The notes beneath the pieces are model-generated. The model was not told the DNA's origin, searched no databases, and saw only the letters and a program-made list of their open reading frames with translations. Positions 16,074-60,177 of a DNA stretch of 64,000 nt are shown here, piece after piece; positions within the stretch are counted from its first letter, which is position 1, and each line of letters starts with the position of its first letter. The DNA comes from a virus. The position numbers and the translations under genes were made by a program. The stretch covers positions 1 through 64,000 of the IMG/VR virus record IMGVR_UViG_3300031963_000068; one strand, written 5' to 3'.

Positions 16074-17936
16074 TTAAAAATACGTAGTTACTACAACAAT
16101 CCCATCACCACCACGGCCACCAGCACCTGATACAACACCAACACCAACATTACTTGAAGCAGCACCACCACCACCTCCGCCTCCATATAGACCACCAGCG
16201 GATCCAGAACCGGCTGCAATATTACTAGAGCCTCCGCCTCCGCCTCCTTGACCAAACAAAGTTCCAGCAACTTGACTCAAAGCAAGACCACCACTTGCAG
16301 CAATAGGACCACCGTTTGTATCACCTGTAATAAATATTTGTCTTATGTTACCACCACTTCCACCAGATTGTAAAGCATTAGCCGAACTAATTGAGCCTCC
16401 GCCTCCGCCTCCGCTCGGTCCATATGGTATTTCAGCACCATCATCCGCAGTAGCAGCCGTATTCGATCTACCTCCATTAGCAGGGTTAGTTAGATAAGTA
16501 TTACCAACACCTCCAATCGGTGGAAGTATACTTTTAGCAGAAGAGCCACCAAAACCGGCGCCTCCGCCTCCAGCAAAAGAAAAAGTTCCAAAAAGACTAT
16601 TACCACCAGCCGAACCAGGTCTACCATTAGTTGAGTCAGTTGCTTGAGAACCACCTCCTGTACCAGATGTACCAACTGTAACCGAGACAGTAGATGGCAA
16701 ATCTTGACCGATGAAATTAGTAACAGAAACACCACCACCTCCACCACCATCACCACCCATTCTAGTAGAAGAAGCAGCACCTCTTCTACCAGAGCCACCT
16801 CCACCACCAGCACCAATAAGAATAACATTTACTAATTTAGCTCCATTTGGTTTAGTCCAAGTAGAATTTGAGGTATAAACTTGGACATTTGAAGCACTAA
16901 CGTTTCCTTGACCCGACGTACCAGAAGTAGAACCTGACGTACCAGAAGTACCAGAGGTAGTTGCTTGACCTCTTGTTCCAGATGTACCTTCAGAAGCTTG
17001 AGTACCAGATGTACCAAATGTTCCACTCGTTCCACTTGTACCATTTGAACGACTTATTCCAGATGTACTAATACCACTTGTTCCAGATGTAGATGAGAGT
17101 GCAGAAAAGCCAACTATTGATGAACCACTTGTTCCAGCAGTAGAAACACCACCTGAACTTCCCGAGGTACCGGATGTTGAAACATCACCATTAGTACCAG
17201 ATGTTCCTTTAGTACCGGAAGTAGCAACTTGACCCGTTGTTCCAGCAGTACCAGACTGACCAGATGTACCATTAGTACCAGATGTACCCTGAGTACCAGA
17301 TGTACCAGATTGACCAGATGTTCCAGCAGTTCCAGTTTGTACACCGGATGTACCGGATGTACCAGATTGAGTAGAAACAGCATTTGTAGTTATGTTACCT
17401 GATGTACCAGATGTCGTAAGAGAAGCATTTGCAGTTGAAATACCAAAATTACCAGATGTTCCGGATGTATTAGAGTTCCCGGATGTTCCGGATGTGTTAG
17501 ATGTTCCTGATGTTCCTGATGTTGTTATTTGACCTCTTGTACCAGAGGTACTTGATAAACCAGATGTTCCAGCAGTCGTTGATAAAGTATTATTAGTTGA
17601 TATTCCAGAGAGACTACTGACTGAAGAAAAACCCTGTGTACCAGATGTTCCAGATGTTCCATTTGTACCAGATGTTCCAGATGTTCCATTTGTACCAGAT
17701 GTTGCATTAAAAACAGCACCTGAGCTACCAGAAGTTGAATTCTGACCAGATTGACCAGATTGACCATTTGTACCAGAAGTATTTGAAATACTACTATTTC
17801 CAGATGCACCGGATGACAAAGAATTTCCAGAAGTACCGCTGGTTTTAGAAGAACCATTTGTACCAGAAAGTCCATTTGTACCAGACGTTCCACTCTGTAT
17901 TAAACCACTAACACTATTAATTTTAGATAACGACAT
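16074..17936 (-). CDS. Collagen-like fibre with glycine-rich adhesin tip (paralogue 1 of 3)
   Basis: 620 residues. A short N-terminal anchor ([15 protein letters not shown]) is followed by residues ~16-370 of Gly-X-Y triplets, mostly G-T-S, with almost no proline. Then [19 protein letters not shown] opens a glycine-rich C-terminal domain packed with GGGGGG runs, resembling Gly_rich_2-type and gp38-like phage adhesins built from polyglycine loops. The chain ends [10 protein letters not shown], a pattern shared with its two upstream paralogues. Probably a receptor-binding or decorating fibre. A TTAATATATA box ends 4 nt before the ATG. Confidence 0.8.
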
Positions 17937-17940
17937 AATT

Positions 17941-17950
17941 TATATATTAA
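17941..17950 (-). promoter_or_regulatory. TTAATATATA box, 4 nt upstream of ATG 17936
   Basis: TTTTAATATATA then AATT then ATG; overlaps the stop codon of the preceding fibre gene. Confidence 0.5.
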
Positions 17951-19821
17951 AATCTAGTAATGACAACAACCACACCGTCACCACCATCACCACCACGACC
18001 CGAACTAAATCCGTTAGTAGAAGCACCTCCGCCTCCGCCACCACCTCCATATAGACCACCATCACCTCCCCTGCCTCCAGGAGTAAGCGCGATATTACTT
18101 CCAGCACCACCACCAGCACCACCTCTTCCCAATAAAGAAGCATCTGAACCAGGTCCAGTTTGACCATTTACCCCAACAGCTGCACCAGCAGCAAATATTG
18201 TACTATTATCAACCGTCAATATTGACCCACCGTTTCCTCCAGTCCCGAATACATTAGTAGCAGAAATGTTACCACCACCTCCACCACCAGTCGGTTTATA
18301 AGGAGTATCCTCAGCAGCACCACCCGATGTTCCACCATCACCAGTATTACCTGAAGTTCCTGGATAATTAACATCACCACCAATACCACCGGTACTAAAT
18401 GAAGCGGTTTTACCACCATCTCCACCTCGACCACCTCCCACAGTCAAATAGACATTAGCACCAGTAATATAATCACCAAATATAGTATCGTCACCATTAT
18501 TACCATCATTACCGTTTGTGTTTATAGTTGAAATTGCAGCACCACCACCACCACCAGCACCCGGATTACAAAGCACACTAGATGGTAGTATTGAGGCATT
18601 AATAAGAACTCTAACATGTCCTCCTGAACCACCACCAGATCCACCGAATCTTGTTCTACCAGAAGCATTCAAAGCACCAGAACCACCACCACCGCCACCA
18701 CCTATACAAATGACCTCAACCATTTTAGCACCGCTTGGTTTAGTCCATGTAGCATTTACAGCCGAATAGGTATTAATTTGTATAGAAACAGCACTGGTAC
18801 CACTTGTACCAAAAGTACCCGATGTTCCCGAAAACCCACCAGAACCGGAAGTTCCAGAGGTTCCACCAGTTTTTGAGATACCAGAAGTTCCGGATGTTTG
18901 AGATGTTCCTGAAGAACCACTAAGAGTACCAAAACCAGAAGTTCCTGAAGTAGTACCAGATGTACCGGAAGTAGATGATAAACCAGAAGTACCGGAAGTT
19001 CTGAATGCACTAGATGTACCCGAATTACCACTATTTCCTGTTGTTCCTGAAGTACCACTATTACCATTAGTTCCAGATGTTCCAGAAGTCGATGATAAAC
19101 CAATTGTACCTGATGTACCTCGTGTACCACTAGTACCAGAACCACTTGATACACCAGAACCACCAGAAAATGAAGAGACACTTGATACCCCAGAACTTCC
19201 TGATGTACTTGAATTTCCAGATAAAGAAGAAGTTCCAGATGTACCAGAAGTTCTACTTTGACCAGAACTTCCTGATGTACCTGTAGTTCCTGAACTACCC
19301 GATGTTCCAGAAGTAGTCAATCCAGAGGTACCGGAGGTTGACGAATTTGCGGAGGTTCCTGATGTATTTGAAGTTCCAAAAGTTCCAGAAGTTGATGAGT
19401 TATTACTCAAACCAGAAGTTCCAGAAGTAGTATTCAAACCATTAGAAAAAGAATTACCGGACGTCCCTGATGTCGTATTGACACCGGATGTACCGGAGGT
19501 TGTATTAATACCTGATGTTCCAGAAGTATTTGAAGAATTACTTATGCCAGATGTACCAGATGTACCAAATCCTCCAGATGTACCAGAAGTATTGTTATTT
19601 CCAGATGTACCAGAAGTATTGTTATTTCCAGATGTACCAGATGTTCTAGTTAAACCGGATGTTCCAGCGGTTGAAGATAAACCAGATGTTCCTGAAGAAC
19701 TATTATTACCAGAACTACCACTAGTGCCGTTGGTTCCTGATGTACCAGAACTACCAGAAGTCGATGATAAACCAGATGTACCGGATGTATTATAATTTAC
19801 ACTATCTATTTTATTTATCAT
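17947..19821 (-). CDS. Collagen-like fibre with glycine-rich adhesin tip (paralogue 2 of 3)
   Basis: 624 residues with the same plan as its neighbours: a ~12-residue N-terminus (MINKIDSVNYNT), a (GTS)n-type stalk to about residue 345, NATWTKPSGAKMVEVICIG, then a glycine-rich tip with GGGGGGG runs ending DGVVVVITRF. The tips of the three paralogues share strand positions but differ in the loops between glycine runs, as expected for receptor-specificity variation. A TTAATATATATA box lies 3 nt before the ATG. Confidence 0.8.
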   Translation of the reverse strand: MINKIDSVNYNTSGTSGLSSTSGSSGTSGTNGTSGSSGNNSSSGTSGLSSTAGTSGLTRTSGTSGNNNTSGTSGNNNTSGTSGGFGTSGTSGISNSSNTSGTSGINTTSGTSGVNTTSGTSGNSFSNGLNTTSGTSGLSNNSSTSGTFGTSNTSGTSANSSTSGTSGLTTSGTSGSSGTTGTSGSSGQSRTSGTSGTSSLSGNSSTSGSSGVSSVSSFSGGSGVSSGSGTSGTRGTSGTIGLSSTSGTSGTNGNSGTSGTTGNSGNSGTSSAFRTSGTSGLSSTSGTSGTTSGTSGFGTLSGSSGTSQTSGTSGISKTGGTSGTSGSGGFSGTSGTFGTSGTSAVSIQINTYSAVNATWTKPSGAKMVEVICIGGGGGGGSGALNASGRTRFGGSGGGSGGHVRVLINASILPSSVLCNPGAGGGGGAAISTINTNGNDGNNGDDTIFGDYITGANVYLTVGGGRGGDGGKTASFSTGGIGGDVNYPGTSGNTGDGGTSGGAAEDTPYKPTGGGGGGNISATNVFGTGGNGGSILTVDNSTIFAAGAAVGVNGQTGPGSDASLLGRGGAGGGAGSNIALTPGGRGGDGGLYGGGGGGGGASTNGFSSGRGGDGGDGVVVVITRF

Positions 19822-19824
19822 AAC

Positions 19825-19836
19825 TATATATATTAA
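19825..19836 (-). promoter_or_regulatory. TTAATATATATA box, 3 nt upstream of ATG 19821
   Basis: TTAATATATATA then GTT then ATG. Confidence 0.5.
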
Positions 19837-21743
19837 GTAAAATAAGTTGTAACAACAACAATTCCATTCGCACCAAAACCACCGTTTCCAAACTTATCAC
19901 CACGAGGTATGTTATCGCCATTAAGACCAGCACCACCGCCTCCACCGCCTGCACCATAAAGAGCACCATTAGCACCAATACCGGATCTAGCAGCTCCTCC
20001 ACCTCCTCCACAACCAATATCAGAAAAAGAATCACCCTCATTACCATCAGTTAATGATGGGTCAGTACTAGCAATTCCAGGATTACCACCTAAACCGTTG
20101 GTATATTGAACTGTACCACCATCTCCCCCGTCGAAATTAGTATTACTAGCGTTTATACTACCACCACTACCTCCACCAGTTGGTGCTCTGAATGTGAGAG
20201 CACCAGCAACACCAATACCACCAGCACTATTTCCACCAGAACCTCCACGTTCAATATTACCATAACCACCTGAATTGTTAGAAGTCGGAATACTAGCAGA
20301 TGAACCACCTCCACCACCTCCACCACCAAAAGCAATTAGGTTACTACCAAATCCAGAACCTAGTGCTGAAGTACCAAATATCGAATCAGTACCCGCGGCA
20401 CCATCACTTCCATCTTGATTATTGGCAGTCACTACTCCTCTACTACCACCCTGACCAACCTGAACCGTCTCTGAGTTTTGTAAATCAGAAGCCCTGAAAA
20501 TAGCTCGTGAAAAACCTCCACCACCTCCACCATTACCACCCCATCGAGCAGTACTAGTAGCTGACCTTCTACCAGCACCTCCTCCTCCGCCACCACCAAT
20601 ACAAATCACTTCAACCTTATCTGCATTTGCAGGCTTTGACCAACTAAAAATTGTTGTAAGTGGACTAGCAATAACCGTGTAAACCTGAACATCAATAACA
20701 TTCAGTGTACCGGATGTTCCAGATGTTCTTGATAAACCAGAAGGAGCAATAGCTCCTTGACTAGTTGATATACCAGAAGTTCCACTTGTCGTAGCATTAG
20801 GAAAAGAAGATTGAAAACCAGAAAAATTTGGATTATTACCGGTAGTTCCTGAAGTACCTTGTGTACCAGATGTACCTACAGCTCTGCTAAGACCACCCGT
20901 ACCAGAGCTACCAGAGGTACCATTGGTTGAATTTAATCCAGCAGTACCACTAGTAGAAAAATTGGTTGATATTCCTGTGTTACCACTACTACCAGATGTT
21001 GTGGAAAATCTGTTACCACCACTCTCTCCACTCGTACCAGAAGTTCTAGATAGACCGTTAGTAGTCAGACCTGATGTTCCATTTGTTCCTGAAACCGAAA
21101 CAAAACTACTTGAGGTTCCAGACGATCCAGCGGTACTCTGTGGCGTTTGAGCAGATATACCTGAATTTCCAAATGTACCAGATGAACCAGAGGTCAATGA
21201 AACCCTGCTTGAACCAGAATTTGATGAATTTGATGAATTTCCAGACGTACCAGAAGTTTTATTTGAACCAGATGTTCCACTTGTACCATTCGTACCTGAT
21301 GTAGAAGAATTTCCAGCGGTTCCTGTAGTACCATTTGCTGAAGACTGACCAGAAGTACCGGAAGTTGAATTTGTACCAGAAGTGGATGATTGGCTTGACA
21401 AACCAGACGTACCACTCGTACCATTAGTTCCAGAAGTAGAAGAATTTCCAGCGGTTCCTGTAGTACCATTACTTCTTGAATTACCAGCCGTGCCTGATGT
21501 AGAAGAGGTACCAGCTGTTGAATTTATACTTGAAATCCCACTTGAACCTGAAGTACCAGAACTACCAGAACTACCGGATGTTGTAGATAAACCACTAGTA
21601 CCTGTTGTACCAGAACTACCAGAAGTACCAGAAGTACCAGAAGTAGAACTTACTAAGCTATTAGTAGATTGTCCAGATGTACCAGATTGACCATTTGTAC
21701 CGGACGTACCAGTATCTATAACAATACCATTTATTTTCTGCAT
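19833..21743 (-). CDS. Collagen-like fibre with glycine-rich adhesin tip (paralogue 3 of 3)
   Basis: 636 residues: N-terminus MQKINGIVIDT, (GTS)n/(GTN)n stalk to about residue 345, FSWSKPANADKVEVICIGG, glycine-rich tip, end [10 protein letters not shown]. The stalk contains two near-identical modules built on [18 protein letters not shown], showing recent internal duplication. Start supported by a TTAATATATA box 4 nt upstream. Confidence 0.8.
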   Translation of the reverse strand: MQKINGIVIDTGTSGTNGQSGTSGQSTNSLVSSTSGTSGTSGSSGTTGTSGLSTTSGSSGSSGTSGSSGISSINSTAGTSSTSGTAGNSRSNGTTGTAGNSSTSGTNGTSGTSGLSSQSSTSGTNSTSGTSGQSSANGTTGTAGNSSTSGTNGTSGTSGSNKTSGTSGNSSNSSNSGSSRVSLTSGSSGTFGNSGISAQTPQSTAGSSGTSSSFVSVSGTNGTSGLTTNGLSRTSGTSGESGGNRFSTTSGSSGNTGISTNFSTSGTAGLNSTNGTSGSSGTGGLSRAVGTSGTQGTSGTTGNNPNFSGFQSSFPNATTSGTSGISTSQGAIAPSGLSRTSGTSGTLNVIDVQVYTVIASPLTTIFSWSKPANADKVEVICIGGGGGGGAGRRSATSTARWGGNGGGGGGFSRAIFRASDLQNSETVQVGQGGSRGVVTANNQDGSDGAAGTDSIFGTSALGSGFGSNLIAFGGGGGGGGSSASIPTSNNSGGYGNIERGGSGGNSAGGIGVAGALTFRAPTGGGSGGSINASNTNFDGGDGGTVQYTNGLGGNPGIASTDPSLTDGNEGDSFSDIGCGGGGGAARSGIGANGALYGAGGGGGGAGLNGDNIPRGDKFGNGGFGANGIVVVTTYFT

Positions 21744-40603: not shown

Positions 40604-41758
40604 ATGTTAAAGAAATTTTCAAGTTTTTTAAGAGAAGAGCTATATATCGAAGATATGGATAAAAACTCAGTAAATACTCTGAAAGAAAACATACTTTTCA
40701 GACTGAATGAATATAGAACTTTTATTCTCTCAAATATAATCTACAATTTTGAAACAAATAAAGTTGAATATAAAAATTTTGACCATATAGATATCAAAAT
40801 TATTATGAGAGAACTAACAAATGAGTTTACACAAGAAGTTGTTGAGGAGTTGAATATAGAATCGTTTTTAAGAAAATTAAACCAAATTCTTGAATTAAAG
40901 AAAAGAAACACAAAAAGAAAAATAAGAGAAGCTTTTGATGATTATTACAAATCTATTGAAGTTAGAATCGACCAATTACATCAAATGGGTAAAACAGAAG
41001 ACCACTTTGATGAATTTGAAGGAGAAGGTTCTATATTAGGCAGAAGACAATATGAATCTGAAAAGTATCAATTACAAGTAGAACTACTTAAACTTCAAGA
41101 ATGGGTAAAAACAAATGGAAAAAAAGTTGCAATAGTTTTTGAAGGAAGAGATGCCGCAGGTAAAGGTTCCACTATAAAAAGATTCATAGAATACTTAGAC
41201 CCTAAAGGATTCAAAGTAGTTGCTTTAGGCGTTCCTACTGAGCAAGAAAAAAACAATTGGTTTCAAAGATATGAAAATCACTTACCAAATACAGGGGAAA
41301 TAGTTTTCTTTGATAGAAGTTGGTATAATAGAGCAGTAGTTGAACCAGCAATGGGATATTGTACAGAAGAACAATATCAAGATTTTATGGATAAAGTAGT
41401 TGATTGGGAAGAAAAGCAAATAAGAAATGGACTAATACTTATTAAATTTTGGTTTTCAATTACTCAAGACAAACAAATTAAAAGATTTGAATTGAGACAA
41501 AAATCACCATTGAAATATTGGAAGTTTTCACCAAATGATGCTAAAGTCTTAGATAAATGGGATGTTATTGGTAATTTTAAAAGACAAATGTTCCAACAAA
41601 CATCTTCTAGACTATCACCTTGGGTTATAATTAATTCAAATGATAAAAAAATAGGTAGATTGAATGCTATAAGATATGTATTATCTCAAATCAATTATGA
41701 AAATAAAAACAACGAATTATGTAAATATTATCCAGAAGTTGTAAATATTCTGATATAA
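40604..41758 (+). CDS. ppk2: Polyphosphate kinase 2 (PPK2) with N-terminal extension
   Basis: 384 residues. PPK2 enzymes use polyphosphate to phosphorylate nucleotides (AMP/ADP/GDP) or the reverse. The catalytic core lies at ~140-384: Walker A G181-R-D-A-A-G-K-G-S189, the Walker B/lid F236-D-R-S-W-Y-N-R-A, then GYCTEEQYQDF and the basic PLKYWKFSPND, all conserved in the family. The first ~115 residues are not part of a standard PPK2 and begin MLKKFSSFLREELYIED, a capsid-targeting-like sequence with L-R-E. The core is full length with no missing catalytic residue. Could replenish NTPs from host polyphosphate, or act on delivery into the host. Confidence 0.88.
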   Translation: MLKKFSSFLREELYIEDMDKNSVNTLKENILFRLNEYRTFILSNIIYNFETNKVEYKNFDHIDIKIIMRELTNEFTQEVVEELNIESFLRKLNQILELKKRNTKRKIREAFDDYYKSIEVRIDQLHQMGKTEDHFDEFEGEGSILGRRQYESEKYQLQVELLKLQEWVKTNGKKVAIVFEGRDAAGKGSTIKRFIEYLDPKGFKVVALGVPTEQEKNNWFQRYENHLPNTGEIVFFDRSWYNRAVVEPAMGYCTEEQYQDFMDKVVDWEEKQIRNGLILIKFWFSITQDKQIKRFELRQKSPLKYWKFSPNDAKVLDKWDVIGNFKRQMFQQTSSRLSPWVIINSNDKKIGRLNAIRYVLSQINYENKNNELCKYYPEVVNILI

Positions 41759-58748: not shown

Positions 58749-58775
58749 AAAGTCCTCTTATTTAGAGGACTTTCT
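58749..58775. terminator. Bidirectional terminator
   Basis: Stem AAGTCCTCT/AGAGGACTT with TATTT loop, A and T flanks. It overlaps the stop codon of the leftward HAD gene at 58758. Confidence 0.8.
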
Positions 58776-59825
58776 TTTTTTATCTTTTAAAATTTCTTTT
58801 GAATTTTTAGCTAAATATTGTACTTGTTTTCTGAATTGATTATAAAAATCATCCTGCCTATTTAAACCACCACTTGGATTTAATCTATTAGTCATATTTC
58901 CAAATTGAGTACAAGTAAGTACTGAACTTTCTAGTCCAGGTGTTTGATGTGATGTCTCAGTTAAACCCATCATCGTTACTTTTTTAGTAATATTTTCAGG
59001 GTCTTTAGTACCCTTAACAACAAACTTTATTATGTTCGGGAATTCTTCATGATTCAATTTATCAGCTAACTCCTCAATATGCGCAACATTACCTAAATCA
59101 TCATCAGAAAAACCTATCATGGCCTTCATGCCTAATTGACCAGCAAATCTATCAACTTTTGACTTAAACAAAAGTAAGGCTTCTTCTTTAGCCTTTTCAG
59201 GATTATCTGGTGTACCACCTCTTGATGGTGCCGAAACTCCGATAAAATCACAATTGTCTAAATACAATTTTATCAATTCATTCTGTGATGGAACCCCTTT
59301 AAGAATTCTTTCTCTGTCAGTAGAAATATCATAGAAGTAGGAAAATTTAAGTAAGTTATTATACATACTAAAAAGTTGTTCTTCCGAAAGAACATTATCA
59401 ATAATCCATTCTGTGCCTATTCTCATAGTTTCGGGCTCATGACCACGAGCTGTAATAATCGCAAAAAGAGAACCGTTTGATAAACACTCTATAAAATCAT
59501 CCCAAGCAGGAGCAAATCTATTAGCAGAAATTGCTTTTTTTACATCCTCTAAAAAGACTTGACCACCCAAAGGTCCTGTATCTCTGAAGTTAGCAAATGC
59601 TTCATCAGCACTTTGATTCAAATATCGGTAATTTTCTTTATCATTTCTTACCTCAGCAAACTCTGCAGTTGATACATCTGTTGGTATCCATTGTTCTCCA
59701 ACTTTTTTCTCAAGTCTAATCATAGTTGGCATTCTTAGAATATTATCATCCCAATCAAATGCGTAATATAATAAAATATTAGAATCGCTATTTTCCGATA
59801 TAAACTGATTAAATCTTGATATCAT
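58758..59825 (-). CDS. HAD-superfamily hydrolase-like protein with capsid-targeting-like N-terminus
   Basis: 355 residues from ATG 59825. HAD motif I is AF-D24-W-D26-D27-N28, motif II is AIIT125-A-R-G, and a late GFS-D241-D-D243 could be motif IV. Probably a phosphatase or phosphotransferase; the substrate is unknown. N-terminus MISRFNQFISENSDSN is one of the best matches to the T4 targeting sequence, with I-S-E. An upstream-extended reading is an artefact of the neighbouring acidic gene read out of frame. It starts 4 nt after that gene, so the two form an operon. Confidence 0.72.
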   Translation of the reverse strand: MISRFNQFISENSDSNILLYYAFDWDDNILRMPTMIRLEKKVGEQWIPTDVSTAEFAEVRNDKENYRYLNQSADEAFANFRDTGPLGGQVFLEDVKKAISANRFAPAWDDFIECLSNGSLFAIITARGHEPETMRIGTEWIIDNVLSEEQLFSMYNNLLKFSYFYDISTDRERILKGVPSQNELIKLYLDNCDFIGVSAPSRGGTPDNPEKAKEEALLLFKSKVDRFAGQLGMKAMIGFSDDDLGNVAHIEELADKLNHEEFPNIIKFVVKGTKDPENITKKVTMMGLTETSHQTPGLESSVLTCTQFGNMTNRLNPSGGLNRQDDFYNQFRKQVQYLAKNSKEILKDKKRKSSK

Positions 59826-59829
59826 AAAT

Positions 59830-60177
59830 TTATTTCTTTGATTTCTTATTGATAAAAGATTGAAAAGATTCAAGTGCAGCAGGTTCTCTAACTTCTTCTT
59901 CACCTTCTTCCATTTCTTCTTCACCTTCTTCCATTTCTTCTTCAAAGTCATCACCTTCTTCTGACTCATCATCAAAGTCTTCTTCTTCATCTTGACCAAA
60001 TTCGTCAAAATCTTGAACTTCTTCAGCATCATCGTCTTCATCTTGACCTTGACCTTCTTCAACTTCAATAGAGAATTCTTCAACTACTTCGTCATCTTTC
60101 TCAGCTTTAACAGAAATGACACCGTTTGCGAATTCAATTTCTATTTCATATCCTTCTATTTCAACTTTAGTTTTCAT
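59830..60177 (-). CDS. Very acidic protein, prohead core candidate (gp67-like in character)
   Basis: 115 residues. Residues 1-40 form strands (KVEIEGYEIEIEFANGVIS); residues ~40-95 are nearly all Glu and Asp, including a duplicated EEMEEGEE unit; the last 20 turn basic: ALESFQSFINKKSKK. The acidic body recalls T4 gp67, a head-core protein, but this is composition, not homology. The C-terminal ESFQSFINK resembles the N-terminal motif of the packaged-protein candidates. Operon partner of the HAD gene; TTTTTAATATATAA box ~22 nt upstream. Confidence 0.55.
   Translation of the reverse strand: MKTKVEIEGYEIEIEFANGVISVKAEKDDEVVEEFSIEVEEGQGQDEDDDAEEVQDFDEFGQDEEEDFDDESEEGDDFEEEMEEGEEEMEEGEEEVREPAALESFQSFINKKSKK

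Follow-up and report, generated by a model that had tools for sequence, protein, structure and literature searches.

In bacteriophage T4, the internal proteins IPI, IPII and IPIII, three small proteins to which Alt has to be added, enter the head by means of an N-terminal capsid-targeting sequence (CTS; MKTYQEFIAE). For IPIII, ten N-terminal residues are sufficient for entry into the T4 head; residues 4 and 7 of the leader govern targeting, residues 8 and 10 govern processing, and the protease gp21 cleaves after L/I-X-E (PMC9026906). Giant phages such as phiKZ and SPN3US likewise package many proteins as inner-body or ejection proteins, some of which are processed after a Glu motif (PMC5694885), but these have long propeptides and an A/S-X-E motif and belong to another phage lineage. 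Class I polyphosphate kinases 2 (PPK2s), which carry a signature Asn after Walker B, phosphorylate ADP and GDP, AMP being no substrate of the model enzyme PA0141 (PMC8776046). Here, we describe a phage PPK2 that combines a class I kinase with a short leader resembling that of T4. The parts are known, whereas the combination and its scale are new; neither PPK2 nor capsid-targeting leaders were found to be described for these phages in the literature searched, the coverage of which was incomplete.

The DNA analysed, hereafter the window, comprises 64,000 nucleotides of a virus record of 84 kb. The nearest PPK2s in named records are those of LR745206 (634 kb; 71% identity), LR756502 (642 kb; 61%) and LR756501/LR756503 (735 kb; 43%), and the relatives that share the leader are phages of 600-735 kb. 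Phages above 634 kb were placed in the Mahaphage clade, with Bacteroidetes as hosts, by Al-Shayeb et al. 2020 (PMC7162821), and we infer that the window derives from a relative of these Bacteroidetes-infecting Mahaphages (634-735 kb).

Results

The window encodes a class I PPK2 with a phage-specific N-terminal domain

The intact PPK2 core expected from the original prediction was verified, including Walker A and the FDRSWYNRA motif. The Pfam PPK2 model matches residues 147-370 with 268.3 bits (gathering cut-off 22.3), and the cut-off of TIGR03707, the NCBI equivalog model of class I, is passed with 315.1 versus 301.8 bits, while the LR756501 homologue, at 288.5 bits, stays slightly under it. 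In an alignment of 43 phage homologues, GRDAAGKGS and FDRSWYNRA are essentially invariant, and two further residues are named as conserved, D237, which aligns with the catalytic D117 of Francisella tularensis PPK2, and N242, which corresponds to the class I signature Asn (N153 of Sinorhizobium meliloti PPK2). The closest solved structures are class I enzymes, foremost F. tularensis PPK2, on which the core of the model superposes with an rmsd of 1.2 Å over 239 columns at 54% identity. Walker A and B, the catalytic Asp, the class I Asn and a superposable core are common to the phage enzyme, F. tularensis PPK2 and P. aeruginosa PA0141 (PPK2A, TIGR03707), but the phage enzyme differs from the bacterial class I PPK2s by a one-residue deletion after W219 and by the addition of a helical N-terminal domain of ~105 residues plus the leader. 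Judged by its sequence, the window PPK2 is a member of class I. Since the TIGR03707 cut-off is passed and the signature Asn is present, the expected reaction is the transfer of phosphate from polyphosphate to ADP or GDP, yielding ATP or GTP. Among the acceptors proposed earlier, ADP and GDP are therefore retained as expected substrates, whereas AMP, as for class I enzymes in general, is not expected to be used.

In a phylogenetic tree, 58 phage PPK2s lie on one side of a branch that separates them from the bacterial enzymes sampled (support 90/45), and the branch that also includes one long-branch bacterial row has a support of 100/99. This split points to an old phage enzyme rather than a recent acquisition.

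The catalytic domain starts at about residue 146, which leaves ~145 residues ahead of it and not ~115 as stated before. In the AlphaFold2 model of the window PPK2 (mean pLDDT 87.8), only residues 1-11 and 134-136 fall below 50; residues 1-11 are disordered and form the segment of lowest confidence, residues ~15-128 have a confident predicted fold with the helical domain at 20-128, and the N-terminal domain was again confident when modelled by itself. A structure search with this domain against PDB and BFVD returned no match at E<=0.001, and the assignment to a known fold was dropped. Bacterial homologues align almost only from residue ~143 onward, and Walker A of the bacterial class I homologues lies between ~36 and 234 residues after the first ATG. 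As bacterial homologues are equally variable in this respect, the length of the extension was discarded as evidence for packaging. The extension had been taken as such evidence in the original prediction, but ~105 of its residues are a folded domain which, in diverged form, is also present on phage PPK2s bearing another leader, so that this argument does not hold.

The leader on phage PPK2s is confined to the first eleven residues

The N-terminus of the window PPK2 reads MLKKFSSFLREE. The resemblance to a targeting leader is limited to residues 1-11 (MLKKFSSFLRE|E), in which F5 and F8 have the spacing of the T4 targeting positions 4 and 7, and L9-R10-E11 forms a processing site of the L/I-X-E type at the end of the leader. 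E11 is present in 18 of the 19 members of the clade and varies less than any other of the first 33 positions. Diverged PPK2s of the lineage start with MLKRFSNFIREE, MPVYNFHKFINEE, MINNFIKFINEE and MISNYDNFMNES, among others. The proposal of a capsid-targeting-like leader thus stands for these eleven residues on comparative grounds (profile, T4 positions and controls) and falls for the rest of the extension. Some PPK2 orthologues have a weak or altered leader (L005, MNYKKILEEI; L209, L210 and L214), and a second group of phage PPK2s is without it. This group (L233, L234, L237 and L245-L262) shows another stereotyped N-terminus, M..LL.EI.RIK.VMG...E. That this second leader (LLxEIxRIxxxMG) serves as a further packaging tag could not be shown, because hardly any other protein on those contigs bears it.

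Unrelated proteins of the relatives share the leader

Many ORFs of the window start alike. A nine-column profile was trained on 30 N-termini of LR745206 (W01) alone, and a score of at least 8 was called a leader. In the held-out genome LR756501, 66 of 981 genes reached this threshold compared to 1 of 548 internal-Met controls (p=2e-12), and 16 of 257 genes did so in the held-out part of the LR756502 genome. Phages beyond the lineage yielded 1/372 (G003), 1/322 (G004) and 0/160 (G008) genes, i.e. 0-0.3%. Iteration of the profile on both genomes gave 80 of 918 genes for LR745206 and 90 of 981 for LR756501, counts that are less independent and include some false positives. In the relatives, the leader is thus found on roughly 5-9% of the genes or about 40-90 per genome. 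In sets of 60 and 75 leader proteins, the consensus was MKYLxxxFxE or MxxxYxxFxNE and the mean column identity 6%, by which the proteins are otherwise unrelated. Expansion of paralogues as the source of the shared leaders is mostly ruled out by these unrelated bodies, a few W03 members being paralogues.

These genomes are rich in A+T (32% GC in the window, 29% in LR745206), which could speak for an ordinary phage-borne metabolic PPK2 whose N-terminus resembles a leader by chance or through A+T-rich gene starts. We strongly disfavour this explanation and consider it very improbable, since the internal-Met controls and the three phages from outside the lineage are almost without hits and none of the 79 bacterial PPK2s scored carries the leader (top score <3). 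Moreover, synonymous codons in the leader follow the usage of the genes (e.g. GAA:GAG 54:18 versus 897:330), which places the constraint at the protein level, and the leader state is kept between orthologues in four close relatives (p 1.7e-8 to 2.5e-3). Between LR745206 and LR756501, the leader repertoire turns over: one reciprocal-best pair is above threshold on both sides with automatic choice of starts (PPK2 would make two), compared to 6 and 10 one-sided pairs.

The leader matches the T4 capsid-targeting sequence in its functional positions

Applied to 272 non-overlapping T4 ORFs, the profile trained on LR745206 alone ranked IPIII first, IPII second, gp61.1 third and gp24, which is a gp21 substrate, sixth; as the leaders of IPII and IPIII are identical, these two count as one hit in evolutionary terms. 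IPI, Alt and the T4 core proteins were not found by this profile in the same set. The conserved columns, aromatic-x-x-F-[I/L]-x-E, have the spacing of the four functional positions of T4. The leader therefore shares with that of IPI, IPII and IPIII its N-terminal place, the spacing of aromatic, Phe, Ile/Leu and Glu, the L/I-X-E end and the attachment to unrelated cargo. It differs in its scale, with about 40-90 genes per genome as opposed to three small proteins plus Alt in T4, and many of the putatively packaged proteins are enzymes of 200-660 aa. The T4 protein gp61.1 (18966-19130), ranked directly behind IPII and IPIII, starts with MKTFKEFIKED and may, by this similarity, be an overlooked capsid-targeted protein of T4.

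Gp23-type capsid proteins were found in 5 of 5 larger relatives, and so were putative S77-type prohead protease homologues, the latter as weak matches (E about 1e-4 to 1e-6, all under the Pfam cut-off). The 84-kb record of the window itself gave no match for the prohead protease and a weak one for Gp23. A [IM]-N-E|N motif is conserved in the prepeptide region of five related capsid proteins, and KKINE|A stands close to the start of the LR756501 protease ORF. I-N-E is the commonest end of the type A leaders and matches the prepeptide site of the capsid protein. By this motif, capsid and protease would be cleaved at [IM]-N-E and KKINE, respectively.

Taken together, the leader is very probably a T4-type capsid-targeting sequence, in which case PPK2 would be packaged, trimmed and injected. 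Alternatively, the leader could be a true shared signal for sorting or processing that directs its proteins elsewhere in the cell, e.g. to a membrane, a replication compartment, the tail or the capsid exterior, and PPK2 would then be an ordinary auxiliary metabolic gene that is not injected. Some of the cargo enzymes (RNA ligase, radical SAM, methyltransferase, GH108 endolysin-like) are plausible in many places. Nevertheless, we regard this alternative as unlikely, as the profile picks out T4 internal proteins, the positions it conserves coincide with those mapped in T4 for targeting and processing, and the end of the leader recurs as I/M-N-E in the capsid prepeptide.

According to a further alternative, the leader is capsid-directed for scaffolding or assembly only, and most of the protein bearing it is broken down or leaves the head during maturation, so that no active PPK2 is delivered. 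There is a precedent in T4, where gp21 cuts the core proteins gp22, gp67 and gp68 to pieces (PMC9026906), and some leader genes of LR756501 lie near head genes (62.9-66.2 kb and 81.9 kb). Such a role is quite improbable, as the catalytic residues and a confident fold, both needless in a disposable scaffold, are kept across the phage PPK2 clade.

Other genes bearing the leader

Most of the leader-bearing proteins have no family match. In LR745206, recognisable cargo comprises a fusion of a 2'-5' ligase-fold/Acb1-like domain with an exonuclease, a T4-type RNA ligase 1, a DHH protein and a protein resembling GH108 endolysins; in LR756501, it includes a radical SAM protein, a methyltransferase and an aldolase besides PPK2. 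One leader-scored LR745206 protein has a tentative match to DNA primase families. In the window, none of the recognised replication proteins (UvsY-like, polymerase and, by N-terminus, primase-/helicase-like ORFs) bears the leader. The HAD-like gene of the window, whose true start lies inside the mechanical ORF 58758-60083, is a second broadly shared leader gene beside PPK2 (Table 1). The LR745206 fusion (448257-449573; L049:8260-9573, minus strand) combines the leader with a 2'-5' RNA ligase-fold domain, which has a weak match to the anti-CBASS protein Acb1, and an exonuclease domain, and is on these grounds a candidate for an injected anti-defence protein. Small adjoining genes at 447847-458342 of LR745206 carry the MK(H/Y)LKxFNES flavour of the leader, of which the strict pattern occurs 28 times in LR745206 and not at all in LR756501. 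Separately, three successive large proteins with TSG/NGS-like Ser-Thr-Gly repeats are encoded at 16074-21743 of the window (minus strand) and are probably components of a tail fibre or appendage.

In LR745206, TAATATATA precedes 30 of 76 leader genes compared to 97 of 734 other genes (p=9e-8). TTAATATATA, the top enriched 9-mer, lies directly upstream of start codons in both the window and LR745206, is commoner ahead of leader genes by the same LR745206 counts and is likely to be a phage promoter element. Dating of expression by TAATATATA as a late promoter was abandoned, since the motif is also found ahead of the genes for UvsX, PhoH, the portal protein and a methyltransferase.

Table 1 Features of the PPK2 gene and leader-bearing genes in the window. 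Scores refer to the leader profile.
Feature	Positions	Strand	Remarks
Class I polyphosphate kinase 2, entire ORF	40604..41758	+	384 aa, ATG start
T4-type capsid-targeting-like leader, residues 1-11 (MLKKFSSFLRE)	40604..40636	+	score 13.7 (W01-only profile); predicted cleavage after Glu11
Phage-specific N-terminal helical domain, residues 12-145 (helices 20-128)	40637..41038	+	pLDDT mostly 85-95
PPK2 catalytic domain, residues 146-371	41039..41716	+	Pfam PF03976, TIGR03707
Walker A GRDAAGKGS, residues 181-189	41144..41170	+	(nearly) invariant in phage homologues
Walker B region FDRSWYNRA, residues 236-244	41309..41335	+	from alignment; contains D237 and N242
Leader gene MKYLHKFLQHLNES..., 214 aa	7544..8188	-	score 19.2; leader kept in orthologues
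Leader gene MNKIDKFLEFFIEN..., 140 aa	43426..43848	+	score 15.6; leader kept in orthologues
Leader gene MITKYDGFILER..., 372 aa	44326..45444	-	score 11.6; leader kept in LR745206, G002 and G010 orthologues
Leader gene MKHLQKFNES..., 103 aa	45815..46126	-	score 20.3; second leader flavour
Leader gene MMIKKFNEFIREFIE..., 303 aa	46839..47750	-	score 16.6; leader kept in LR745206 orthologue
Leader gene MISRFNQFISENS..., 355 aa, HAD-like DWDDN motif	58758..59825	-	orthologues in several relatives also with leaders

Discussion

We consider it probable that the leader of the class I PPK2 is a capsid-targeting sequence of the T4 type and that the enzyme is packaged, trimmed and injected. We infer that PPK2 is packaged, cleaved, injected and active and that the phage benefits from it, and the proposed course is as follows. 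The aromatic residues F5 and F8 would direct PPK2 into the core of the prohead, where a putative S77-type prohead protease of the phage would cut after L9-R10-E11. The N-terminal helical domain would stay attached to the kinase after this cut, and the mature protein would be enclosed together with the DNA and subsequently injected. At the start of infection, the injected PPK2 could make ATP and GTP from host polyphosphate, or drain the polyphosphate. The possible gain for the phage would be a supply of ATP and GTP that does not depend on host metabolism, or the removal of polyphosphate.

The presence of the same tag on dozens of unrelated proteins suggests that these phages may inject a large, ready-made protein kit. 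We see about an even chance that each virion of the largest known phages injects an enzyme kit made up of dozens of capsid-targeted proteins, about ten times as many as in T4. PPK2 would then be one of the few components of this kit to persist in diverged lineages, so that infection would open with host polyphosphate being tapped or drained before any phage gene is expressed. The genomes of these uncultured phages comprise as many as ~1000 genes, the majority of them without a known function. If our interpretation is correct, an N-terminal tag would identify the proteins that reach the cell along with the DNA and thus provide a testable list of effectors of the first minutes of infection, and polyphosphate, which is seldom considered in phage infection, would be among the first host resources touched.
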